This document shows positions 50,539 through 63,214 of a stretch of 64,000 nucleotides of DNA, in pieces. This DNA is from Rhizobacter sp. Root1221. Lineage in GTDB: Bacteria > Pseudomonadota > Gammaproteobacteria > Burkholderiales > Burkholderiaceae_C. The stretch spans positions 1,606-65,605 of the forward strand of contig NZ_LMDI01000013.1 of the NCBI RefSeq assembly GCF_001425785.1. Reading direction: 5' to 3'. The first letter of the stretch is position 1. Each line of letters begins with the position of its first letter. The translations under genes and the position numbers were made by a program. Below the pieces are notes generated by a model, which was not told where the DNA came from, did not search any database, and saw only the letters and a list, made by a program, of their open reading frames with translations.

Positions 50539-50628
50539 CGACCTTAACGTCCCCGCTCCGGGGTACCCCCTTCGAAACCGGCGCGAAACGACGAGGGTGC
50601 GGCGAGCGCCTTGCTCCAGAATGTCGCC

Positions 50629-52404
50629 ATGCACTTCCCGATCCGGCTTCCTTTCCGCGGAGGACCCTTTGGCGCCGCGCTGCTCGCGGGCGCGCTGGCC
50701 TTGGGGTTGTCCGTGTCGATGTCGCGCTACCTGAACCGCGACCTGCTCGACGAGTTCAGTGACGCCTCGCAGTTGCTCCAGCGCCAGCAGGCGGTGGCCG
50801 CCGACCACGAGGCCGCCGCCGTGGCATTGATCGATCTCGCGCGCCTGCTGGCATCGCCGCGCGCCGATGCCGATCAGGAGGTGGCCCGGCAACTGGCCGT
50901 GTTCCACGGGCACGCCGAACGGCTGGCCGCCCAGCTCGGGCAACGTGCCGGTGCAGCCAGCACGCCGGTGTACGCCGACACCTTGCCCGCACTGCAGGCG
51001 TTCCCCGGCGCGGCCGGTCCGTCCGATCCGGCGCTCCTGCCACGCACGCTCGAAGCAGCCGACCGCCTCGCGCGGCTCGGCCGTGCGGTGCGATCGCAAG
51101 ACGAAGCCGAACGCCTGGCGCAGCAGGCCGCCATGATCCACCTGCGCACCCGCACGGTGGTGTTGTCCCACCTCATGTGCCTGATGTTCTCGCTCACCGC
51201 CGCCGTGGCCACCTTCGGGGTGCTGCTGGCGCGCCGCGAAGCGCGAACCCGCCGCGAGGCCGACGATGCGCGCCGTGCCGCGGTGGCCTCCGGCGAACAG
51301 GCCCAGGCGGCCAGCCGCGACAAGAGCAAGTTCCTCGGCATGCTGACCCACGAGCTGCTGACGCCGCTTCAGTCGATCATCAGCAGCATGGACATCATCG
51401 AGTCGAAAGGCCGGGTCGAGGCGGGTGAACCGCTGTTCCTGCGCCTGCGGGAAGGCACCCGCGCGTTGCGCGCGCGCCTGAGCGACCTGGTCGACTTCGC
51501 GAAGATGTCCGCGGGCCGCCTGGCGGTGAACCCGCGCAAGTTCCGCCTCGACCGGCTGGTGGAGGAGGTCATCGCCGACCACGAGGAGTCCGTGGTTCGC
51601 AAGGACCTCGACATCCACTGGACCCCCGGCCCCGACCTGCGCCAGGCCGTGGTCACCGACCCGCGCCGTGTGCGGCAGATCCTCGACAACCTGGTCTCCA
51701 ACGCCGTGAAGTACACGGAACGCGGTGGTGTCACGGTGCATGCCGCCGTGGAAGCGGCCGAGGCTGGCAGCGGGCGCCTGTGCCTGGAGGTGCGTGACAC
51801 GGGTGTTGGCATCGCGCCCGAGGCGCTGTCTCACATCTTCGATCCGTTCTACCGGGTCGCCGCGGCCACCCCGATGGCCGAAGGCAGCGGCCTGGGCCTG
51901 GCGGTGGTGCGCAGCCTCGTGGAACTGCTGCACGGGCAGCTCCATGCAGAATCCACGCCCGGCGCCGGTTCGCGTTTCGTGGTCTGGTTGCCCATCGCCA
52001 CCGCCGCGCCACTCGAGATCGCATCACCCCCGCCGCTCGGGCTGCCGCCGGTGCTCGTCGTCGACGATGCCCACGACGTGCGGGCCGCGTTGGCCGACGT
52101 GGTGCGCGGGTTGGGCTACGCGCCGTCCGAGGCGGGCAGTGGCTTCGAGGCCCTGCGGGCATTGGCCGAACGCCGCTTCGCTGCCGTGCTGCTCGACCTG
52201 GACCTGCCCGACCTGCCCGGTGGCGAAGTTGCCAGGCGCGTGCGCCAGGGTGACGGCCCGAACCGTGCCACCCACCTCGTGATGCTGTCAGCGTCGCATG
52301 CCGTCGATGCCGACGTCGAGCGCTGGTTCGACGCGCGGGCCGACAAACCTGTGGCCGCGGCGCAGTTGCAGGTGGCGCTCCAGGCGGCGGTTCTCGCGTC
52401 GTGA
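50629..52404 (+). CDS. hybrid sensor histidine kinase with C-terminal receiver
   Basis: A 591-residue membrane kinase. Two helices (about 13-33 and 178-204) flank a helical periplasmic sensor region. The phosphoacceptor H241 lies in LTHELLTPLQS, and the ATPase has NLVSNAVKYTERGG, DTGVGI and GSGLGLAVVRSLV. A receiver follows from about 473, with acidic D479/D480, phosphoacceptor D523 in LLDLDLPDLPGG and the late lysine in ADKPV. No HPt domain is seen, so one must be supplied elsewhere if phosphate is relayed. TTG at 50611 is an alternative start. It converges with the HTH-receiver gene. Confidence 0.9.
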   Translation: MHFPIRLPFRGGPFGAALLAGALALGLSVSMSRYLNRDLLDEFSDASQLLQRQQAVAADHEAAAVALIDLARLLASPRADADQEVARQLAVFHGHAERLAAQLGQRAGAASTPVYADTLPALQAFPGAAGPSDPALLPRTLEAADRLARLGRAVRSQDEAERLAQQAAMIHLRTRTVVLSHLMCLMFSLTAAVATFGVLLARREARTRREADDARRAAVASGEQAQAASRDKSKFLGMLTHELLTPLQSIISSMDIIESKGRVEAGEPLFLRLREGTRALRARLSDLVDFAKMSAGRLAVNPRKFRLDRLVEEVIADHEESVVRKDLDIHWTPGPDLRQAVVTDPRRVRQILDNLVSNAVKYTERGGVTVHAAVEAAEAGSGRLCLEVRDTGVGIAPEALSHIFDPFYRVAAATPMAEGSGLGLAVVRSLVELLHGQLHAESTPGAGSRFVVWLPIATAAPLEIASPPPLGLPPVLVVDDAHDVRAALADVVRGLGYAPSEAGSGFEALRALAERRFAAVLLDLDLPDLPGGEVARRVRQGDGPNRATHLVMLSASHAVDADVERWFDARADKPVAAAQLQVALQAAVLAS

Positions 52405-52423: not shown

Positions 52424-53287
52424 TCAGCGCGGCGTGGGTGCCATGCCACGCCGCAGGTAGCTGGCCAGCACAGCCTGGCGGAATGGCTTCTCGAAGATGC
52501 CCACGGAAAACGCCTCGGCAAAGGGAATCAACGACCCTTCGGTTTCCGCCCCGGTGTGCAACGCGCCGGTGGTGATGGCGATGGGCACGCTGGGCTGCCG
52601 TGCACGGATCTGCCGAATGGCACCTTCGGCCGTGCCCCCACCCAGGAGCCAGTCGATCACATAGGCTTGGCACGGGCGGCGGTCCAGCGAACCCACCAGG
52701 TCTGCGGCCGCGTGGTAGGTGTGGACCACCATGCCTTCGCCTTCGAGCGCCATGGCGACCACCGCCGCAGCGTTGCTGTCGTCCTCGAGCAGGGCCACGC
52801 GTTGGCGCGGAGCGCTGCTGATGCGCAATGACGCGATGCTGTGGCGGGGGAGGCCCCGCGTGGCGTCGGCGTCACCGGGGTACACCGCCCAGCCGTCGGC
52901 CTGACGCACCGCCACCAGGTCGCAGAGGTCATCGGGCGCGAGCAACGGCCCCACCAGCAGTTGACCGGATGCCGGCAGGCCGGGCAGGTGGAGCCGCGCC
53001 GGTTCGGGCGCGCCTGCGCCGCCCGAGCGTTCCGCCGGACCGCCCGACACGCCGATCAACGTGTCGACGTCGGTGGCGAAATGGTCCGCGATGACCTTCA
53101 ACTCCGGTTGCGAGAACGACGACTCGCCCTTGAACTTGCGGAACACGCTGGTCTTGGCCAGCCCCAACAGCCCGGCCACTTCGGTGGTCTGCTTGTGCCG
53201 CGGGATGCCGCGGCCAAGCAGGAACGCCTTCAGCGCGGGGTAGGGGCCATCGTCGAGCGGGCCGTGCGGGTCGTGGTCGTCGTTCAT
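52424..53287 (-). CDS. regulator with N-terminal helix-turn-helix and C-terminal receiver domain
   Basis: A 287-residue protein with the reverse of the usual order. Residues about 25-80 form a helix-turn-helix (TTEVAGLLGLAKTSVFRKFKG). Residues about 160-285 form a receiver with all key residues: D169/D170, phosphoacceptor D212 in YVIDWLLGGG, T240 and K267 in FEKPFRQ. It faces the hybrid kinase tail to tail and is divergent from the FlhDC-like gene, so it is a likely phosphorelay output controlling the transfer genes. ATG at 53287; TATAAT lies on the minus strand 28 bases upstream. Confidence 0.85.
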   Translation of the reverse strand: MNDDHDPHGPLDDGPYPALKAFLLGRGIPRHKQTTEVAGLLGLAKTSVFRKFKGESSFSQPELKVIADHFATDVDTLIGVSGGPAERSGGAGAPEPARLHLPGLPASGQLLVGPLLAPDDLCDLVAVRQADGWAVYPGDADATRGLPRHSIASLRISSAPRQRVALLEDDSNAAAVVAMALEGEGMVVHTYHAAADLVGSLDRRPCQAYVIDWLLGGGTAEGAIRQIRARQPSVPIAITTGALHTGAETEGSLIPFAEAFSVGIFEKPFRQAVLASYLRRGMAPTPR

Positions 53288-53314
53288 GTCGGTGGCGGAG
53301 CGAAGGGCCGGGCG

Positions 53315-53433
53315 ATTATAGAAAGGATTGCGAAAGAAGTGCGGTCTGTGCCGTTCTAGGGGGTTGGGATTGCAATGTGGATTCAATGGCGGTGATGATT
53401 GCGAAATGAATGCAGCTGCAACGTAATTGCATT
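53315..53433. promoter_or_regulatory. divergent control region with repeated GATTGC motifs
   Basis: The minus-strand -10 TATAAT (53315-53320) serves the HTH-receiver gene. The ten-base GATTGCGAAA occurs at 53326-53335 and 53397-53406, GATTGCAAT at 53368-53376, and AATTGCATT at 53425-53433. The first copy lies between the expected -35 and -10 of the leftward promoter. These look like operator copies for the helix-turn-helix protein, controlling itself and the FlhDC-like gene. TTGCGA (53399) and CGTAAT (53422), 17 bases apart, are a possible rightward promoter. Confidence 0.6.
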
Positions 53434-53497
53434 GATAGGGCGAATCGCAGTTCTCGTTTGCCCGAGTTTGTTCCACCGTCGTCATCCCGGAGAACCC

Positions 53498-54793
53498 ATG
53501 GAAACCAACCCGATCCCGCTCCACGCCGCCTGTGTCGTCGACCAGAAGGACCTCAACGAGGCCGTCATCGGTGCTGTTGCGGCCGTGGCCCGGCAGAACA
53601 TCCACCACTGCGCAGAACTCTTCGGCATCAGCGTGCGCCTTGCCCAAAGGTTCGCGTCGATGGCCCTGCAATCCGACGACCGCACGAGCGACGTCGATCC
53701 CCTGGAGGACCTGGCCACCACCCCCACCGCGCTGTGGCGTGTGCACATGACTGTCGAGCACGTCGCCGAAATGCAGCGGGGCCGGGGTGGCCCGGCCCTG
53801 CCGCACCTCGAACGCTACCGGCCCATCGTCAAGGCGCTCAACGAGCAAGTCGTGCTCACGCTGCTGCGCTATGCCACGCAGCCCCGGCTCGCGGCCCTGG
53901 TGGGCGGGCTGGGCAGTGCCGACGTGATGGCGGCCATGTCGTCGGCGAGCTGCAGCACGCTGGTGCAGTCCGCAGGCCACCTCCCGCGGCCGTTGGTGGC
54001 CCTCACCGTCAACGAGGTGTACCTCGACCGCGTGTTCTCCACGCTGAGCGGTTTGCCGGTGGACGCCACGATGCGCTCGTTGCTCGCACGCACGCTGTGC
54101 CACTGGAACGACTTCGTGGCCATCAGCGCCGGCCTCGACCAGGAACTGGCGGAACCGCGGCGCGAACGTGTCACGAAGATCGGCCGGCCCACCGCCGTCT
54201 TCCTGCCCCCCGGCGAGGCCCGCACCATCCGCCAGCTGATCGACCACGGCGTCAGCACGAAGGCCATCCTGCAGTTCACCCGTTCCGAGGTGAATTCCGC
54301 CCAGGTGCGCCGCCTGCGCCACACCGCCGACGTGCGCCGCGCCATCGATTCCGACATCGATGCCGTCGATCCCGATCTTCCCCGCACCCACGACAGCAAT
54401 GCAGCGGTCTGGGGCAGCGCGGCGCGGCGGCTGCTCGTCACATCCATCTTTGCGCACCAGCGCATCCTGGTCTCGCTCGGCATGCCGCCGCACGCGGCGT
54501 TCGTGGAAGCGTACGAGTTCTATGCCATCCACCACCGCGACCCGTCGAACCCGCTCTCGCTGTCCCGCCTCATCAGCGCCGTGTTCACGCCCATGCGCGA
54601 GGGCCTCGTGCACCTGGGGCACTGCAGTGAGTGCGGCACCATGCACCTGTCGCACGACGGGCACCACAACGGCATCGAGTGCCCGGTGTGTGCCCTGGCG
54701 AAGTTCAACAAGCTGGGCCGCCCGTCCGCGTTCCGTGCCTCCCATTGGCTGCCACGCCCGCACACCCGTTCCACCCAGCCCCTTATGGCATGA
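53498..54793 (+). CDS. FlhDC-like transcriptional activator: two FlhD-like repeats fused to an FlhC-like domain
   Basis: A 431-residue protein. The C-terminal part (about 238-400) matches FlhC: ARTIRQLIDHGVSTKAILQF, then AFVEAYEFYAIHH and LSLSRLISAV, ending in a four-cysteine zinc site (C376, C379, C395, C398). Residues 18-82 and 112-172 resemble each other (DLNEAVIGAV and ALNEQVVLTL openings) and align with the FlhD pattern of an N-terminal helix, a middle LFGIS/GGLGS turn and a later LA helix. FlhDC relatives (SetDC, AcaDC) activate conjugation genes in other elements. GGAG precedes ATG 53498. The FlhC part is fairly secure; the FlhD repeats are my reading. Confidence 0.7.
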   Translation: METNPIPLHAACVVDQKDLNEAVIGAVAAVARQNIHHCAELFGISVRLAQRFASMALQSDDRTSDVDPLEDLATTPTALWRVHMTVEHVAEMQRGRGGPALPHLERYRPIVKALNEQVVLTLLRYATQPRLAALVGGLGSADVMAAMSSASCSTLVQSAGHLPRPLVALTVNEVYLDRVFSTLSGLPVDATMRSLLARTLCHWNDFVAISAGLDQELAEPRRERVTKIGRPTAVFLPPGEARTIRQLIDHGVSTKAILQFTRSEVNSAQVRRLRHTADVRRAIDSDIDAVDPDLPRTHDSNAAVWGSAARRLLVTSIFAHQRILVSLGMPPHAAFVEAYEFYAIHHRDPSNPLSLSRLISAVFTPMREGLVHLGHCSECGTMHLSHDGHHNGIECPVCALAKFNKLGRPSAFRASHWLPRPHTRSTQPLMA

Positions 54794-54858: not shown

Positions 54859-56445
54859 ATGCTCAATTTCCTCAAACGTGCCGTCCTGCCTGGCGGCGTC
54901 CCGGCCGGGGTCGTCGGCCGCCTCGTGTCCGGTCCGCCGGTCCACACCGAGGAGCATCTTTCCATCGACGTTCCCCGCTACCCCCCGTCTGACCCGGGGC
55001 TGCCCGCCGCACCCGTGCCTGCCATCGTCGCCTCGCAGCGCGACCTGATCGATCGCTTGCGCCGGGTGTCCGGGTTCGACGACCCCACATTCGAGAGCCG
55101 GTGCCTCGCGCCCATCCAGGGCGTGGCCCGTTATGTTCACCTGCTGCCCGCCACGGCCTTCGAGCACTTCGCGGGCGCCGGTGGCCTCTTTCGCTACTGC
55201 GTCGAGATGGCGCTCTTCAGCCGCCAGGCGGCGGAGGGCCGCATGTTCGCCCACGCCGCCTCTGCCGAAGCGCGGCGCGACCTGGAGCCGCGCTGGAAAT
55301 ACGCCTGTTTCCTGGCCGGCCTGCTGAGCGAACTGCACCGTCCCCTGGCGGCGCTGGTCGTCACCGACCCCACCGGCCGCGTCTGGCCCACGTTCCTCGG
55401 CAGCCTCGATGCCTGGCTGCGCGCGGTCCAGGCGGAGCGCTACCACGTGGCATGGCAGGGGCGCCCTCCGGGTCTGCCCGCCAGTGCCGAGGGGGCTGCC
55501 GTTTTCGGCGACATCATCCCCAAAGGTGCGCTGGCCTGGCTTAACGAGGCCTCGCCCGCGCTGGTGGCCGAGGTGTTCGGCACCGCGCTCGGCCAAGCCG
55601 GCACGGGTGGAGGCGTGGCCTCGGTGGTGGGCGCCACACGCGAGCGGGTGCTCCATGTCGAGGCCAGCACGCGGCGTACGCGGTACGGGCAACTGCGCGT
55701 GGGCCATCACCTGGAACTGTACCTTGTCGATGCCATCCGGCAGCGGGTTGCGGCAGGCGGTTGGGGCGCCAACCCGAGGCAAGGGCCGCTCTGGTTTGGC
55801 ACCGACGGCCTGTACCTCGAATGGCCCGTGGCGGCAGGCGCGATCCGCGACGACCTCCTGCGCAACGGCACCCCGGGCATCCCGCTGTGTGCCTTTACCC
55901 TGGCCGAGGTGCTGGGGCGTGCCGGCGTGCTCGCCGAAGTGTCCCCAGGGAATTGGCTGTGGCCCATCTGCACCGGTCCGTGCCATGACACAGCGCCGCC
56001 ACCCACGCATTGCAGCGCGTTGAAGTTCGCCGAACCCCGGTCCGTGCTGGGTTACTCCGACGTGCAACCTGCGGCCCACCGGTTCCATGGCGTGGTCGAG
56101 CCCGGCGAACACGCCGTGTTGCCGGCACCCTCGCAGGGCTTGGCGCCGGCCGAGGCCCGCATGGTCGATCAGTGGCGCCAATCCCTCGGCGCCCGGCGCA
56201 CCGATCTCCTCGTGTGGCTGCCCGGCCGGGGCCTCGCCGTCTCGCAGGACCTGATCGCATCGTCCGGCGCCGACCTGGCCGCGGTGGCCACGTCCCTGCA
56301 TCGGCGGCATTGGCTGGGGCGTGGTGACTGGCCATCGCCCCACGCCCGCGCGGGGCTGCTCGCCTTTGCAGGCACCCTCAAGCCCGGGCTGGTGCTCAAC
56401 GAGGCAGGCGCCCGCCAACTGGGTCTGGCTGTGCCACCCACGTGA
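54859..56445 (+). CDS. TraI_2-domain (MobH-relaxase-like) protein with non-canonical HD site
   Basis: A 528-residue protein. Residues about 60-330 match the TraI_2 domain of MobH relaxases (ARYVHLLPATAFEHFAGAGGL, split as RYVHLLPATAFEH and AGAGGLFRYCVEM). In MobH proteins the metal-binding histidine of GGLLxH and the HD of LLHDIGKP are conserved. Here they read GGLFRY (Y113) and LLSELHRP (S157, E158). A C-terminal winged-helix segment (ARAGLLAFAGTLKPGLVLNEAG) is present. I recall a TraI_2 subgroup beside Trb systems with a similar ELxR pattern, so this may be subfamily-wide. ATG at 54859 is chosen from homologous starts. Confidence 0.75.
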   Translation: MLNFLKRAVLPGGVPAGVVGRLVSGPPVHTEEHLSIDVPRYPPSDPGLPAAPVPAIVASQRDLIDRLRRVSGFDDPTFESRCLAPIQGVARYVHLLPATAFEHFAGAGGLFRYCVEMALFSRQAAEGRMFAHAASAEARRDLEPRWKYACFLAGLLSELHRPLAALVVTDPTGRVWPTFLGSLDAWLRAVQAERYHVAWQGRPPGLPASAEGAAVFGDIIPKGALAWLNEASPALVAEVFGTALGQAGTGGGVASVVGATRERVLHVEASTRRTRYGQLRVGHHLELYLVDAIRQRVAAGGWGANPRQGPLWFGTDGLYLEWPVAAGAIRDDLLRNGTPGIPLCAFTLAEVLGRAGVLAEVSPGNWLWPICTGPCHDTAPPPTHCSALKFAEPRSVLGYSDVQPAAHRFHGVVEPGEHAVLPAPSQGLAPAEARMVDQWRQSLGARRTDLLVWLPGRGLAVSQDLIASSGADLAAVATSLHRRHWLGRGDWPSPHARAGLLAFAGTLKPGLVLNEAGARQLGLAVPPT

Positions 56446-56449
56446 CTCC

Positions 56450-58360
56450 ATGCGCATCGCCAATGCCTTGCGCCCGGCCCACGAGGCGCGGTCGGCACTC
56501 GCCTGGGGGCTGGCCTTCGCATACGGCCTCGTGCTCTGGGCCACGTTCCGCCCCGACACCCGCCTGGCTGCGGCCTGCTGTGGCGGCACGCTGGCGTTGT
56601 GCTTCTGGCGCGGCTTGCAGGCGCGCACCTTGTGGCGGTTCAAGGTCGCCCTCGCGGGGACGCCGGTGCAGCACGTGTCGAGCGCCACCTTCGACCGCGC
56701 CCGCCCCGCACTCCGTGGCGACCTGTGGCTCGGTTGGGGCTACCGCTGGCAACCCGAACACACCCAGCTCTGCCACGACGTGCTCAAGCGTTCCCTGCGC
56801 GACATCTACCCGCCGGCCTGGTTCCTGCGTCTGCATGGGGTGCGCCACGACCCCGCCGCAGCGAAGGGGTTGGCCTGGGTGCACGGGCTGGCCCCCGAGC
56901 GCGACGTGGTCGTGCCGTTCGCTGCGCTCGAGGGGCATACGGCGGTGCTCGCCGTCACAGGCGCCCTCAAGACGGTGTTGGCCCGCCTGCTCGTGCACCA
57001 GCTCGCGAGCCGGGGCGACACCGTGATCGTGCTCGACCCCAAGGGCGACAAGGGCCTGGAGCAGGTGTGCCGCGACGTGACCTTGCGCCTTGGGCAGGCG
57101 GAGCGCTTCCTCAAGTTCCATCCCGCATTCCCGTCGCAGAGTTTCCGCTTCGACGCGCTGGCCAACTGGGACCGCGACACCCAGGTTGCCTCCCGCGTCC
57201 GGCTGCTGATGGGACACACGGCCGAGGACCCGTTCAGTGCCTTCGTGTGGATGACCATCACCGACATCGTCCGGGCCTTGAAGCGCGCGGGGCGGCGGGT
57301 GACACTGCAATCGCTGCTCGACACGGTCCGCTCGCGCCACACCGCCGAGGCGCTGGCGCTGGAAGTGCTTGAAGCCTTTCTTGACGCGCGCCGGGCGGCC
57401 CATGTCCCAGGCGCTTCCGCTTCGGCGCCGGCCGCGGGCGGCGACACCGCCAGGCGCCCGGGCCGCCACGCCGCCGCAGCGTTCTCGGACCCCCGCCTGG
57501 CACATGCCGTGCACCGGTTCCGCACCGAGGTGCCTTCGGCCTCACAACCGGCGGACATCGCGGGTTACCTGTCGTCGCTGGAGGCCGATCCCCAGTGGTT
57601 CGCGAAGATGGTCGTGGGCCTCACGCCGATCCTGATGCGCCTGACCGCCGGCGACCTCGGTCCGCTGCTGTCACCCGACCACACCGACCTGGCCGACACC
57701 CGCCCGGTGTGTTCCACCCGGCAATGGATCGAAGGGCGACACGTCGTGTACGTGGGCCTGGATGCGCTCTCGGACACCGCGGTCGCCGAAAGCCTGGCCG
57801 CGCTGATGCTGGCCGACCTGGCCGGAACGGCCGGAGACCTCTACAACCACGGGCCCGCCGATGGCGCCGCGCCGCGCCGCGTGCACGTGCTGTGTGACGA
57901 GTGGGGCGATCTCGTCTGCGAGCCCGTGATCCAGCTCGCCAACAAGGGGCGCGGTGCGGGCGTGGTGTTGTACCTGTTCGGCCAGACCGTGTCGGACCTG
58001 GTGGTCAAGCTGGGTGACGAAGGCCGCGCCAAACGCATCCTCGGGAACATGAACAACTTCATCGTGGGTGCCACGTCCGACGCCGACACCCTCGACTTCA
58101 TGGCCCGCAAGTTCGGCGAGACCGTGGTTCGGCGAACCACGGTGTCCCAGGGGACCGGCCAGAAGACCGAGGACACCGGCCTCGAATACGCCGCCACCCG
58201 CCAGACCAGCGTGACCGAGCAGGCCCTGGAACTGGTGCCTCCCCAGGTGCTGATGAGCCTGCCCGATCTCCAATACGTCGCCATCGTCAACCGGGCCCAG
58301 GTGTACAAGGGACGCATCCCGGTGCTCACCTTCGATCCGCCGGCAAAGGGGCGCGCTTGA
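56450..58360 (+). CDS. TraD-like type IV coupling protein with degenerate Walker A
   Basis: A 636-residue protein with two N-terminal membrane helices, then GLAWVHGL and LEGHTAVL leading into the P-loop region. Where coupling proteins have a GxxxxGKT loop, this one reads AVTGALKT (168-175): both key glycines are replaced but the lysine and threonine remain. The following VIVLDPKGDKGL and the Walker B CDEWGDL (D483, E484) are kept, as are KRILGNMNNFIVG and later RQTSVTEQALELVP. It would link substrates to the secretion channel if ATP is still bound. Starts four bases after the TraI_2 stop and overlaps the DUF4400 gene. Confidence 0.8.
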   Translation: MRIANALRPAHEARSALAWGLAFAYGLVLWATFRPDTRLAAACCGGTLALCFWRGLQARTLWRFKVALAGTPVQHVSSATFDRARPALRGDLWLGWGYRWQPEHTQLCHDVLKRSLRDIYPPAWFLRLHGVRHDPAAAKGLAWVHGLAPERDVVVPFAALEGHTAVLAVTGALKTVLARLLVHQLASRGDTVIVLDPKGDKGLEQVCRDVTLRLGQAERFLKFHPAFPSQSFRFDALANWDRDTQVASRVRLLMGHTAEDPFSAFVWMTITDIVRALKRAGRRVTLQSLLDTVRSRHTAEALALEVLEAFLDARRAAHVPGASASAPAAGGDTARRPGRHAAAAFSDPRLAHAVHRFRTEVPSASQPADIAGYLSSLEADPQWFAKMVVGLTPILMRLTAGDLGPLLSPDHTDLADTRPVCSTRQWIEGRHVVYVGLDALSDTAVAESLAALMLADLAGTAGDLYNHGPADGAAPRRVHVLCDEWGDLVCEPVIQLANKGRGAGVVLYLFGQTVSDLVVKLGDEGRAKRILGNMNNFIVGATSDADTLDFMARKFGETVVRRTTVSQGTGQKTEDTGLEYAATRQTSVTEQALELVPPQVLMSLPDLQYVAIVNRAQVYKGRIPVLTFDPPAKGRA

Positions 58361-58995
58361 CGCGGCGATCCCACCTGGCCGCGTGGCTGCTGCTGTGCCT
58401 GGCCGGGCTGGTGGTGTGGCCGTGGTGGATGGGGCCCGAGCGGCTCGTGGAGCGCGCCCGCGACGAAGCGGCGGTCACACACCGGGCGTTCGGACCACGT
58501 GTGGCCGCGGTGCTGCTGTCCGCGGCCGGTGGGGCGCAGGTGGTGTTCGGCCACCACGGCATCGATGACCTGGTCCGCAGCGGGGGCCGGGTGTCGCCGC
58601 CCGATGCCCGCCAGGATCGCTACCTCTCGGTGGTTTCGCGCCTGGTCGTGTCGCAGGCCGAGCGCTACCTCGTGGCCCTGCGCCTCCAGTTCCACACCAC
58701 CGTACTGCGGGCGCTCGGCGTGGGGGCCTGGTGTGTGCTGCTGCTGCCGTTGTGCGCTGCCGCGGTCGTGGACGGCATGGTGCAGCGCGCCGTCAAGGCC
58801 GCCACGTTCGGCTACCAGAACCCGGCCGCTTTCGCGGTGGCGTCCCACCTGTTCATCGCGAGCGCCATGGTGCCCATCGCCGTGCTCGTGGTGCCGTTTG
58901 CGGTGCCGCCGCTGTTCATGCCGGCATGGCTGGCCGCCGCGTTGCTGCCGCTGTGGGTCGCCATCGCGCACATGCAGCCGGTCTTCACGCGATGA
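58357..58995 (+). CDS. DUF4400 family integrative-element membrane protein
   Basis: A 212-residue protein with about four hydrophobic segments (residues near 8-25, 118-140, 155-185 and 188-205). The VVDGMVQRAVKAATFGYQNPA stretch, split as VVDGMVQRAVK and FGYQNPAAF, is typical of DUF4400, usually found next to TraD in integrative conjugative elements. Its start overlaps the TraD-like stop by four bases. It is probably a partner of the coupling protein in the inner membrane; the exact role is not known. Confidence 0.75.
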   Translation: MTRRSHLAAWLLLCLAGLVVWPWWMGPERLVERARDEAAVTHRAFGPRVAAVLLSAAGGAQVVFGHHGIDDLVRSGGRVSPPDARQDRYLSVVSRLVVSQAERYLVALRLQFHTTVLRALGVGAWCVLLLPLCAAAVVDGMVQRAVKAATFGYQNPAAFAVASHLFIASAMVPIAVLVVPFAVPPLFMPAWLAAALLPLWVAIAHMQPVFTR

Positions 58996-59077
58996 CCTGA
59001 ACACGACCCCGCGGGCGGGCACTTTCGGGGCCGCTTGTGCAGGTGGTCCGCGCCCGGGTACTTCCAGAATCGTGGGC

Positions 59078-60055
59078 ATGGAACACCCCGGCCTGTCGTT
59101 TGCACTGATGTCCGTCGAGCCCTTGCGCCCGCTGATGGAAGACCACGAGGTCATCGAAATCTCCATCAACGCGCAGGACGTGTGGGTCGAGCGCCTGGGG
59201 CGCTCACCCGAGCTCACCGGCCTCCAGCTCACCGACAACCAGGTGGTCGGCATGATCGTCAACCTCGCGAACATTTCGCGCCGCGAGGTCGACCTGCACG
59301 ACGGCAACAAGCTCGCCATCGTGTCGGCCCGCCTGCCGGGCTTTCGCATCGAGGCCCAGCTGTCGCCGGTGGCGGTCAACGGCCCGTACGTGTCGATTCG
59401 CCGCCACAACAGCCGCGTGCTCACGCTCGACGACTACGTCCGCGAAGGCCAGCTCGCCGCATCCCATGCGGCCTTCCTGCGCCGCGCCGTGCAGGCCCAC
59501 GAAACCATGCTGGTGGTGGGTGGCACCAGCACCGGCAAGACCACATTCCTCAACGCGCTCATCCAGGAAATCGACCGCAGCGAACGCCTGCTGCTGATCG
59601 AAACCATCCCCGAGCTGGTGGTGCCGCACCGCAACGTCGTGCGCCTCGAGGCCGACGACGAGCAGGGCTACCCGGTCCACCGGCTGCTGAAGTCCGCCCT
59701 GCGCAGCCGCCCCGACCGCATCCTCGTGGGCGAGGTGCGGGGCGGCGAAGCCTTCGACTTCATGGACGCCGCCAACACGGGCCACCCCGGGTCCATGGGC
59801 ACGGTGCACGCGAACTCCGCCCGCGAAGGCATCGACCGCCTCGAGAACCTCGTGCTCGAAGGCCGCCCGGCCATGCCGCTGTCCGCCATCAAGACCCGCA
59901 TTGCCCAGACCTTCAACCTCGTCGTCCACATGGAGCGCCGCCGCATCGGCGACCGCTGGGTGCGCCGGCTGGGTGAAGTGCTGCAACTCGCCGGGTACGA
60001 CATCCCAAGCCAGACCTACCGCACCCAAACCGTCTTCACCCAGGAACCCGCATGA
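59078..60055 (+). CDS. trbB: TrbB/VirB11-type secretion ATPase
   Basis: A 325-residue hexameric ATPase that powers pilus assembly and substrate transfer. It has Walker A GGTSTGKTT (148-156), the IETIPELV Asp-box region, ILVGEVRGGEAFDFMDAANTG-type Walker B (split as ILVGEVRGGEA and DAANTGHPGSMGTVHANS). All catalytic motifs are intact. ATG at 59078; GTG at 59072 is possible. The order trbB-C-D-E-J that follows is that of RP4 and Ti-plasmid Trb systems. Confidence 0.93.
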   Translation: MEHPGLSFALMSVEPLRPLMEDHEVIEISINAQDVWVERLGRSPELTGLQLTDNQVVGMIVNLANISRREVDLHDGNKLAIVSARLPGFRIEAQLSPVAVNGPYVSIRRHNSRVLTLDDYVREGQLAASHAAFLRRAVQAHETMLVVGGTSTGKTTFLNALIQEIDRSERLLLIETIPELVVPHRNVVRLEADDEQGYPVHRLLKSALRSRPDRILVGEVRGGEAFDFMDAANTGHPGSMGTVHANSAREGIDRLENLVLEGRPAMPLSAIKTRIAQTFNLVVHMERRRIGDRWVRRLGEVLQLAGYDIPSQTYRTQTVFTQEPA

Positions 60056-60411
60056 AACGTTTCCCGACAGCCTTCCGCGCGCCGCGCCCCATCACCTTGC
60101 CTGCAGCCGCATTGCTCGCGCTGGCGTCCGCCTTGGTCCTCGTGCCACAACCGGCCGAAGCGGCATCCGTGTTCAACGGGTTCCCCCTCGTCGACGACGT
60201 GCTGTGCGGCTTCTTTGCCTACAGCCGCACCAAGCTCGCCCCCATGATCGCAGGCATCGTGCTGATCTTCTCCGTCGTGGGGCACTGGCTCGGCAGCGGC
60301 AAGATGTGGAGCACCATGTTGTACGTGGGTCTCGGGCTGGGCATCGTGCTCGGCGCCGGATCGGCGCTGGCGTCGTACACCGGCGTGGCCGCCAGCTGCA
60401 TCGCATCATGA
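60052..60411 (+). CDS. trbC: TrbC/VirB2-type pilin
   Basis: A 119-residue prepilin. An N-terminal signal (ITLPAAALLALASALVLV, cleavage near AEA) precedes a mature part of about 80 residues with two hydrophobic helices (MIAGIVLIFSVVGHWLG and MLYVGLGLGIVLGAGSALA). A cysteine pair (C56 region and C near the end) may form a disulfide. It would be the major pilin of the transfer pilus. Start overlaps the trbB stop (ATGA). Confidence 0.87.
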   Translation: MKRFPTAFRAPRPITLPAAALLALASALVLVPQPAEAASVFNGFPLVDDVLCGFFAYSRTKLAPMIAGIVLIFSVVGHWLGSGKMWSTMLYVGLGLGIVLGAGSALASYTGVAASCIAS

Positions 60412-60713
60412 CCCGAAGCAGCTCCGTGTTTCACATGAGCCTGAACCGGCCGCGACTGGTGGCAGGTGTGGGTTCCGAAGCCTTCGGCCTCATCGTGGTG
60501 ATGGGGGTGATGGCGATGAACCTGCGCAGCCTGCCCATTGCGCTGAGCATCCCGCCCATGTTCCTGTTCCTGCGCTGGGTGTATCGCAAGGATGCCGTGC
60601 TGCTGAAGGCCTTCCTGGGCTACCTCAAGCAGGCCGACCTGTACGACCCCTGGGTGCGCGCGCCCGTGGCGGCGCAGCGCCCGCCCGGTTTCGGAAGGGG
60701 GCTGTTTTGCTGA
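60408..60713 (+). CDS. trbD: TrbD/VirB3-type inner-membrane protein
   Basis: A 101-residue protein with the VirB3 pattern: a short lead (MSLNRPRLVAGVGSEAFG), two membrane helices (LIVVMGVMAMNL and IALSIPPMFLFLRWV) and a conserved end with DPWVRAPVAAQ. It partners VirB4. The ATG at 60408 overlaps the trbC stop; the end overlaps the TTG of trbE. Confidence 0.87.
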   Translation: MTRSSSVFHMSLNRPRLVAGVGSEAFGLIVVMGVMAMNLRSLPIALSIPPMFLFLRWVYRKDAVLLKAFLGYLKQADLYDPWVRAPVAAQRPPGFGRGLFC

Positions 60714-63214
60714 ACCTCCGCCATCTCACGTCCGCCTACAACCAGGGCACCCGCAGCTATGCCGAGCTGCTGCCATGGTTCAAGGACGTCACCCCCGGGC
60801 TCGTGCTGAACCTCGACGGCAGTCTGCTGGCCGCGTTCGAATACTGCGGGAACGACATCGAAAGTTCCAATGAACACGAGCGCGCCGCGTGCCTCGACTC
60901 GGTGGACGTGGCCTGGAAAGCCTTCGACGACCACAACACCGTGTGGACCTTCCTGGACAAGCGGCGCAAGCAGTATGGCGAGGCCAGCACCATCGCCAAC
61001 CCGGTGGCCCGGTACGTCGACGACACCTGGCGCGCGCGCATCGACAACGGGCAGCTGGGTGTGCTGCGCCACGTCCTGTGCATCGCCTACCAGCCGTTCG
61101 GCGGCAGCGCCGGCTTCTTCGACGAGGTGGGTGACCGCGTGGTGTCGCGTGGCCAGTCGTTTCCCCAGGCGCTGGCGGGCATTGCACGGCAACGGCTGTC
61201 CCGCAAGACCCAGATCGAACGCATGGAAGGCCGGCTCACGGCAGCCATCGATGCCTTCGAAGCCCAGCTGACTCAATTTTTCAACACGCTGTCGGCCCGG
61301 CTGGCGCTCAAGCGCCTGCTGCGCGAGGAGTTGCGGGCCGAACTCGCCAACCGGGCCAACATCGCGTCGCCGCGCGCGGCGGTGAACGTGCCACCCGATG
61401 GCCTGTACTTCCTGAACACCCTGGTGCCCACCGACACCCTGTACCGCGAGGCCGGCGGCACCATCCGCTTCGAATCGTCCGCCGGGTGCCGCTACGTCAC
61501 GATGCACAGCGTCAAGGCCTACCCCGGCGAGGCCCAGAACGCCCCCATCGAACAATTGCTTGGGGTGGCCAGCGACTTCACGCTCGCCAGCATGTTCCGC
61601 TTCGTCGACACCGAACGGGCCAAGAAGCTCATCCAGGACCAGGAGCAGCACTACCGGTCCAACGTCAAGGGGCCGCTCGTGCAGGCCATGGAGAAGCTCA
61701 CCGGCATCGAATCCGAACGGGTCAACCACGGCATGGCGGCACTGGCCGACGACGCCCAGACCGCGCTGATCGAACTCACGAAGGAGTCCGTGGGCTACGG
61801 CTACCACGCCATGGCGGTGCAGGTCATCGCCGACACGCGTGAAGACAACCAGCAGGCGTCCCAGCACATCTACGCCATCCTGAACAACGCCGGGTACGGC
61901 CTCGTGAAGGAGAACGTGAACGTGTTGTCGGCGTTCGCCGTGACGCTGCCCGGCGCGGCCGACGCCGTGCTTCGCACGAGCCTCGTCAGCACGCGCAACA
62001 TGTCCGACCTCACCATCGTGCGCACGCTCAACAGCGGCCTGGCGAACAACCCGCACCTCTCCGAGCAGCGTGGGGTGTTCAGCGAACCGCTGGTGTTGTT
62101 GCCCACGCGCACCGACGTGCCCGAGCGGTTCTCGCTGCACGTGGGCGACGTGGGGCACTTCATGGTGGTGGGCCCGGCCGGCGCCGGCAAGACCACGTTG
62201 ATGAACTTCCTGATCACGCACTGGCAGCGCTATGCACCGTGCCGGGTGATCGTGGTCGACAAGGGGTTCTCCAACTACATCACGCTGAAGGCGCTGGGTG
62301 GCGAGTACATCAGCCTGCAGGACGGGCAGGTCGATGCCGCGATGAACCCGGCCCGGTGGATCGCGCGCCCGGCCACGGTGCCGAAGTTCCGCCGCTGGGT
62401 CGAACTGGCGTTGCGGGCGTTCGACGACACCCCGCTCACGCCCGAGAACGTGCAGGTGCTCGACAAGGCCATCCTTCTCGCCGCCGGCCAGGGCGGTGCC
62501 CACACGCTGTCGAAGCTCTACATGCTGATCGCGGGGCAGGACAAGGCGCTGGCGAGCCGCCTCCATGCGTGGACCCGTGCCTCCGATCGCTATGGCATGT
62601 TCTTCGACAACCCGGAGGACCGCTTCGCGCTGTCCGACGTCACCGGCATCGAGGTGGGGGGGCTCCTGGCCGACCACAGCCTCGCGCCGGCCATGCTCGC
62701 GTACCTGTTCGAGGTGGTGGAAGAAAAGGTGGACGACGCCACCCGCCCCACGCTGATCTACCTCGAGGAAGCCTGGTACCTGCTGCAGAACGCAGCGTTC
62801 CGCCACATGTTCGAAGACTGGATCAAGACCATGCGCAAACGCAACGCGTGCGTGGGCATCGCCACCCAGTCGCTGAAGGACGTGCGTGACAGCCCCATCA
62901 GCGCCACGTTGAACGACAACATCAAGACGCGCATCTTCCTGCCCAACCTCCAGGCCTTCGACAGCCGCGACGTGTACCGCGACATGCTGGGCCTGCAGGA
63001 CCACGAGATCGAGGTGATCCGCAACGCACGGCAGAAGCGCGACTACTACATCGTGCAGGACACCCGCCGGCGGCTCGTCGACGTGCAACTGCCGCCCGAG
63101 ATCCTGTCGCTGACCCGCAGCGATGCGCGGGCAAAGAAGATCTTCCAGCGCGAACTGGCGCGTGGTGGTGACAACTGGTTGGCCAGGTACATGCAGGAGG
63201 TGATTCATGGTTGA
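60707..63214 (+). CDS. trbE: TrbE/VirB4-type secretion ATPase
   Basis: An 835-residue ATPase. The N-terminal half (to about 430) is the VirB4 CagE/TrbE domain; the C-terminal half has Walker A GPAGAGKTT (489-497) and Walker B LIYLEEAWYLL, with ATQSLKDVRDSPI later. All motifs are intact. The TTG start at 60707 has GGAAGGGGG upstream and overlaps the trbD stop. It is the energising core of the secretion channel. Confidence 0.94.
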   Translation: MLNLRHLTSAYNQGTRSYAELLPWFKDVTPGLVLNLDGSLLAAFEYCGNDIESSNEHERAACLDSVDVAWKAFDDHNTVWTFLDKRRKQYGEASTIANPVARYVDDTWRARIDNGQLGVLRHVLCIAYQPFGGSAGFFDEVGDRVVSRGQSFPQALAGIARQRLSRKTQIERMEGRLTAAIDAFEAQLTQFFNTLSARLALKRLLREELRAELANRANIASPRAAVNVPPDGLYFLNTLVPTDTLYREAGGTIRFESSAGCRYVTMHSVKAYPGEAQNAPIEQLLGVASDFTLASMFRFVDTERAKKLIQDQEQHYRSNVKGPLVQAMEKLTGIESERVNHGMAALADDAQTALIELTKESVGYGYHAMAVQVIADTREDNQQASQHIYAILNNAGYGLVKENVNVLSAFAVTLPGAADAVLRTSLVSTRNMSDLTIVRTLNSGLANNPHLSEQRGVFSEPLVLLPTRTDVPERFSLHVGDVGHFMVVGPAGAGKTTLMNFLITHWQRYAPCRVIVVDKGFSNYITLKALGGEYISLQDGQVDAAMNPARWIARPATVPKFRRWVELALRAFDDTPLTPENVQVLDKAILLAAGQGGAHTLSKLYMLIAGQDKALASRLHAWTRASDRYGMFFDNPEDRFALSDVTGIEVGGLLADHSLAPAMLAYLFEVVEEKVDDATRPTLIYLEEAWYLLQNAAFRHMFEDWIKTMRKRNACVGIATQSLKDVRDSPISATLNDNIKTRIFLPNLQAFDSRDVYRDMLGLQDHEIEVIRNARQKRDYYIVQDTRRRLVDVQLPPEILSLTRSDARAKKIFQRELARGGDNWLARYMQEVIHG

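Follow-up and report, generated by a model that had tools for sequence, protein, structure and literature searches.

FlhDC is the master regulator of flagella, and relatives of it switch on the transfer of large conjugative elements. The flagellar complex is described as a D4C2 heterohexamer, with the DNA wrapping around FlhC (PMC3510510). Whether an activator of this kind can also be made as a single chain is the question raised by an open frame on the forward strand (53498..54793, with GGAG directly 5' of its ATG) of the window, as we call the whole 64,000-nucleotide stretch of DNA analysed here. The product, a protein of 431 amino acids (P0001), had been read in the initial annotation as a tandem FlhD-FlhD-FlhC chain. 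This reading is borne out by the open frame and its relatives, by profile comparison with shuffled controls, by conserved zinc cysteines, by a predicted fold of moderate confidence that matches FlhDC entries best in the PDB, and by the separate FlhD and FlhC genes found at the same operon position in related loci, so that the domain architecture of the window protein is well supported. The fused protein is a novel form of an activator whose kind, that of FlhDC, is otherwise known; no fused FlhDC was seen in titles or abstract openings among the literature matches listed. It resembles FlhDC in the FlhC fold, in the four zinc cysteines and in having two FlhD-like units per FlhC-like unit (2:1), and departs from it in being one chain instead of two proteins and in being unmatched by the Pfam families FlhD or FlhC. 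We consider it probable that the protein works as a single-chain FlhDC-type activator, in which each chain would supply one D2C protomer and two chains the D4C2 composition, and which would control the mobH-traD-trb genes in the window and in a sister species.

The C-terminal part is FlhC-like

Standard searches pass over this protein. P0001 has no Pfam or NCBIfam family at E≤10, FlhC (PF05280) and FlhD (PF05247) included, a sequence search of the PDB with P0001 gave no convincing match, and a profile of the fusion family compared with the PDB by sequence did not retrieve any FlhDC chain at E≤10. The FlhC-profile search on which the initial annotation had staked its reading therefore divides: the Pfam FlhC family stays blank, whereas a widened FlhC profile, built in this analysis by iteration (as was a widened FlhD profile), does match. 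The latter gives 22-29 bits for all seven fusion proteins, one from each genome carrying the gene, against 8.9 for the best of 10,500 shuffles and 3.5 for the best of 985 background frames; the shuffles returning any score numbered 5,321 for the FlhC profile and 6,157 for the FlhD profile, each out of 10,500. By hhalign, the FlhC part aligns with the widened FlhC profile at 97% over 150 columns (E 1e-10). Together with VIA-align and the cysteines, this places the FlhC-like part at residues 232-405 (54191..54712, forward strand).

The four zinc cysteines proposed from the first inspection of the sequence (C376, C379, C395 and C398) are present, and the arrangement C-x2-C ... C-x2-C recurs in 7/7 fusion proteins. 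The same four columns hold cysteine in 31/31 canonical FlhC sequences, in 26/26 other FlhC-like domains and in 39/40 cells of ten tandem-FlhC domains. When three fusion sequences served as the query against 399 genomes of the order, hits at E≤0.1 came from 18 genomes, the own genome among them, and the best row after the own gene (G285, residues 327-409, E 7.8e-5) was a flagellar FlhC, preceded by FlhD and followed by MotA and MotB. A canonical FlhC is also present in the own genome in addition to the fusion; it lies on contig C49 and is the only FlhC match of that genome by Pfam up to E 1. In a tree of 74 FlhC domains, from which matches shorter than 85 profile positions and a duplicate of the window locus were left out, the seven fusion domains form one clade with support 1.0. 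The tree leaves this clade unplaced: its sister grouping with the second copy in FlhC-FlhC genes has support 0.16, and the canonical FlhC clade itself has support 0.12.

Structure prediction with AF2 on a seven-row alignment reached pLDDT 76.7 and pTM 0.78, with the five models spanning 54.9-76.7; with three sequences only, pLDDT was 42.7. Against a PDB library of 350,542 chains, the top three Foldseek rows were 2avu_E, 8j56_C and 8j56_F (probability 0.99-1.00, E-values 0.12-0.22), all of them chains of FlhC length. Two of these, 2avu_E and 8j56_C, are named FlhC, and 8j56_F was assigned to FlhC, like 8j56_B to FlhD, from the composition of the entry and the chain lengths. VIA-align gave Z 9.2 to 8j56_C (model residues 231-401) and 8.5 to 2avu_E, over about 150 residues and with the next listed chain at 4.5, in a range that calls for caution, since for helical proteins a Z below about 13 may carry little meaning and moderate values are common. 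The C-terminal half is thus predicted to adopt the FlhC fold. Entry 8j56 contains four FlhD and two FlhC chains, which is the composition that two fused chains would give.

The fusion gene and the genes of MobH-type loci

The fusion gene had been placed directly upstream of transfer genes, and it does end 65 bases before the ATG, as chosen by us, of a MobH-type relaxase gene (TraI_2, 54859..56445; Pfam 2.6e-57). The genes that follow are all on the forward strand and encode a TraD/TraG-like coupling protein (ORF 56321..58360, true start probably later; TraG-D_C 2.9e-17), a DUF4400 protein (58357..58995; 1.4e-21), a T2SSE/VirB11-type ATPase (ORF 58499..60055, true start again probably later; T2SSE 3.1e-40), a TrbC/VirB2 pilin (60052..60411; 5.9e-7), a VirB3-like protein (60408..60710; 2e-6) and a TrbE/VirB4 ATPase (60707..63214; CagE_TrbE_VirB 1.1e-12). 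After TrbE come an ORF without a Pfam match, TrbL and then a zinc dehydrogenase gene. The set of transfer genes looks partial among the ORFs scanned, with no VirB8/9/10-type match in the window transfer cluster (54859 to L090:3341). Past the cluster lies a gene for an RlaP-family nucleotidyltransferase (L090:3696-4484, forward strand). About 17 kb separate the fusion gene from a glycine dehydrogenase gene (Pfam) in the window contig, and about the same distance separates the fusion gene of the sister species (G010) from what is, by sequence, the likely counterpart of that gene.

That the gene heads a conjugation-type island, as was first suggested, holds for the window and for G010, the only 2/7 carriers in which TraI_2 was found. 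In the other five, which include all four genomes of genus g288 that keep the fusion, no TraI_2 relaxase was found (completeness is 65% for G112 and 88% for G687), and because of this, heading a conjugation island is not the general setting of the fusion. Another reading, rather unlikely in our judgement, keeps the FlhDC-type architecture but sees in the protein a chromosomal regulator with other target genes. Its place before the transfer genes of two species would be inherited, and it may no longer control transfer. The retention of the gene in 4/4 g288 genomes, where a dN/dS of 0.16-0.17 in two pairs indicates purifying selection, is consistent with this reading, as is the way in which the window cluster runs out, with TrbL, the dehydrogenase gene and no VirB8/9/10-type match among the ORFs scanned; it is opposed by the fact that in both the window and G010 the fusion is co-oriented with mobH and lies just before it, in the position that FlhD and FlhC occupy in other MobH operons, and that conservation between the two species extends to the mobH and traD frames. 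Activation of conjugation genes by the fusion is likely in the window species and G010, and is not proposed as a general function.

The comparison with other MobH operons rests on 17 further loci, retrieved from 200 family genomes with the window TraI_2 as query. Eleven have an upstream match to the FlhC profile, counted when on the same strand and within a 1.5 kb flank, and 10/11 of these also have an FlhD-profile match; at another MobH locus (G063), FlhD and FlhC frames lie about 4.5 kb upstream. Two plasmids carry FlhD, FlhC (in one case FlhC-FlhC), mobH, traD and DUF4400 in this order. Fusions of a different kind occur at such loci. FlhC-FlhC tandems were found at L068, L071, L088, L100 and L110, the last two being among the 11 MobH loci, and TraI_2 lies downstream at L068 and L070. 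The own genome has an arrangement of FlhD, FlhC-FlhC and a MobH locus on its contig C1 (L113:6843-8301, reverse strand). In five cases (L113, L068, L071, L088 and L114) the FlhC-FlhC tandem adjoins an FlhD-like gene, and in 4/5 of them the second FlhC copy matches chiefly the later half of the profile. A gene at L105 (3031-3612, reverse strand; G076:C176) has the FlhD-FlhD form, matching the FlhD profile twice; FlhC, as a gene of its own, and a MobH relaxase come after it, and it is an intermediate state of fusion. The FlhD plus FlhC-FlhC and the FlhD-FlhD plus FlhC genes of MobH-type loci share with the window gene the operon position before TraI_2, but they join FlhC to FlhC or FlhD to FlhD, whereas the window fusion joins all three units. 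No account of these MobH-locus fusions appeared among the literature matches listed.

Conjugation activators have been described in several element families. SetCD of SXT/R391 and AcaCD of IncA/C are activators of conjugation genes reminiscent of FlhDC and, compared here by description only, have separate C and D subunits, unlike the fusion (PMC4344509). BisDC of ICEclc is a conjugation activator with an FlhC-like subunit; DUF2857 is found in BisC and a ParB domain in BisD, where an FlhD domain was not detected (PMC7423338); Pfam, by contrast, finds neither DUF2857 nor a ParB domain in P0001.

The FlhD-like repeats

Both N-terminal repeats had been taken as FlhD-type, and each of them does match the widened FlhD profile. 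This profile was widened with 17 FlhD-like frames from stretches also holding FlhC-like genes, and its final version leaves out two FlhC frames (L077 and L078). Comparison of the fusion family with it by hhalign places repeat 1 at residues 8-98 (53519..53791) and repeat 2 at residues 99-185 (53792..54052), both on the forward strand. In the numbering of G537, repeat 1 (residues 8-84) aligns at 84% over 69 columns with a score of 32.5, where the best of 150 column shuffles reached 20.5, and repeat 2 (residues 85-180) at 59% over 76 columns with a score of 28.0, where the best of 150 column shuffles reached 19.9. Between the repeats and the FlhC-like part runs a linker (residues 186-231; 54053..54190, forward strand), with two helices predicted by AF2 (190-199 and 203-218) and less than 0.5% with both the FlhD and the FlhC profile by hhalign.

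As single sequences, four of the seven fusion proteins, all of them from g288, reach 21.5-24.4 bits against the widened FlhD profile, above the best of 10,500 shuffles (14.0) and the best background frame (4.6). The window protein alone reaches 5.0 bits, a value that is not significant and is attained by 40 of 10,500 pooled shuffles, and G010 and G112 reach 1.7 and 1.1 bits; the FlhD identity of the window repeats thus follows from their alignment with the g288 relatives. In Pfam, three other fusion proteins had no FlhD row at E≤1. The likeness of the two repeats to each other, also part of the first reading, stands in part: there is no direct match between them (hhalign 2.2%), and they are linked through FlhD. 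Their predicted folds are alike, as had been anticipated, with an identical order of elements in the AF2 model, namely helices 8-33, 35-42, 46-59 and 68-73, strand 80-82 and helix 86-94 in repeat 1, and helices 102-124, 129-136, 141-149 and 152-159, strand 167-169 and helix 173-180 in repeat 2.

It might be argued that only the C-terminal half is FlhC-like and that the N-terminal half is an unrelated helical region for sensing or dimerisation, resembling FlhD by chance. The lack of a significant FlhD score for the window protein alone would fit this, as would the weakness of the structural match to an FlhD chain (8j56_B, Foldseek rank 28, probability 0.54, E 6.1, TM 0.58 of the target, 81 columns) and the failure of a profile of canonical FlhD alone, although with 31 sequences the latter is too narrow (repeats below 2%). 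We regard such a coincidence as improbable, given that both repeats cover most of the FlhD profile in 4/4 g288 proteins with scores above those of the shuffles, that at the corresponding operon position FlhC usually has FlhD as its partner immediately upstream, and that an FlhD-FlhD gene exists at L105.

Relatives and selection

The full-length fusion was found in seven genomes of three genera, own genome included, in each case as one open frame, with sequences 33-80% identical to the window protein. In 7/7 genes the FlhC-like and FlhD-like units share this frame, whereas FlhC proper is a separate subunit with its gene beside flhD. The sister species G010 shows 80% and G112 36% identity, and together with the own genome these are the 3/199 genomes that matched in one set. 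In the family search at E≤0.01, 11/399 genomes matched, six of them over the full length (the own genome, G112 and four of g288, where 4/4 genomes have the gene); three g72 genomes gave a weak match to residues 54-120 (E 2.8e-4 to 0.004). No relative of the fusion was found in the plasmid collection, the viral contigs or the first scan of genome contigs.

Between the window and the sister species the whole chain has dN/dS 0.19, which indicates purifying selection, and the parts have 0.22 (repeat 1), 0.18 (repeat 2), 0.17 (linker) and 0.13 (FlhC part). A decaying gene, or an artefact of assembly joining neighbouring genes, could be suspected from the rarity of the fusion (3/199 genomes, or 6/399 at full length, own genome counted in both) and from the absence of homologues in plasmids and in the first contig scan, but this reading is refuted by the seven open frames in three genera, the dN/dS of 0.19 speaks against it, and we give it practically no weight.

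A model for the assembly of the proposed activator

Starting from the domain make-up, the conservation and the neighbours of the fusion as observed here, we favour the single-chain activator and propose the following model. Residues about 8-98 and 99-185 would be FlhD-like units packing against each other as an in-chain FlhD dimer, and residues about 232-405 would form an FlhC-like unit that includes the zinc site. One D2C protomer would then correspond to each chain, and dimerisation of two chains would reproduce the D4C2 make-up of the flagellar complex. In the window and the sister species the assembly would bind DNA and most likely activate the downstream mobH-traD-trb genes, and perhaps also its own promoter.

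The assembly of a 2:1 hexamer and the contacts between FlhD and FlhC are hard to dissect with four identical FlhD chains. In the fusion the two FlhD units are not identical and stand in a covalently fixed order, so that each position can be mutated separately. The FlhD-FlhD and FlhC-FlhC fusions suggest, in turn, that several interfaces of this one complex have become locked in the course of evolution, and they can therefore be compared as natural experiments.

The divergent regulator and the intergenic gap

In 7/7 loci the fusion gene adjoins a divergent gene, on the reverse strand in the window (52424..53287), for a regulator with a BetR domain and a receiver domain. BetR is above the Pfam cut-off in 7/7 neighbour proteins, and Response_reg is above it in the four g288 proteins and below it in the window, G112 and G010. 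Residues E168-D169-D170, D212, T240 and K267 (window numbering) are invariant, as they are in active receivers. In our model this protein would relay a signal by controlling the shared promoter. Near its gene, the window has a hybrid histidine kinase with a receiver domain (50611-52404, forward strand); in G010, the ORF in the corresponding place is without a Pfam match.

Homologues of the BetR-receiver protein occur at E≤1e-12 in 31/399 family genomes, and the six best (E<1e-130) belong to exactly the six fusion carriers of this set, the next having E 3e-61. Weaker homologues stand upstream of FlhD plus FlhC-FlhC genes at L068, L088, L113 and L114, which are 4/5 of the loci where an FlhC-FlhC tandem adjoins an FlhD-like gene, with no BetR-type gene upstream at L071; the homologue at L088 is marginally below the BetR cut-off and has no receiver match. 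The fusion and its neighbour together appear to be one version of a control module used by MobH elements as well. Among 30 BetR-receiver loci scanned, nine (the six fusion loci, L136, L137 and L148) have an FlhD or FlhC match in their flanks, and 21 have none in these short flanks, from which it follows that a link to FlhDC is not a general feature of BetR-receiver proteins. The next closest homologues (L127-L131, five genomes of genus g70, E about 1e-60) likewise have no FlhD or FlhC match within 1.5 kb. BetR-receiver proteins in themselves are more widespread.

A broader scenario, on which we are evenly divided, would see the fusion as a natural FlhD2C protomer, two of which form an FlhD4C2-like ring, with the fusion fixing the subunit ratio. 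It would have arisen within a BetR-receiver/FlhDC/MobH module of mobile elements, one genus having since lost the transfer operon and kept a chromosomal regulator.

The 210-base gap between the two divergent genes (53288-53497) contains two copies of ATTGCGAAANNANTGC, 71 bases apart, which were located as exact matches within the gap on the forward strand: ATTGCGAAAGAAGTGC (53327..53342) and ATTGCGAAATGAATGC (53398..53413). The equivalent gap of G010 also has two copies, and since these four sites were the source of the pattern, their presence is no test of it. There are no exact matches elsewhere in the own genome or in G010, nor any to a reversed control pattern, and this absence suggests a local switch, for which ATTGCGAAANNANTGC would be a candidate operator on sequence grounds. 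Inverted repeats precede the fusion gene as well, differing between the loci. Their arms are 9 nt long in the window and 12 nt long in G010, and those of the FlhD4C2 box, at 17-18 bp, are longer than either (PMC3510510).
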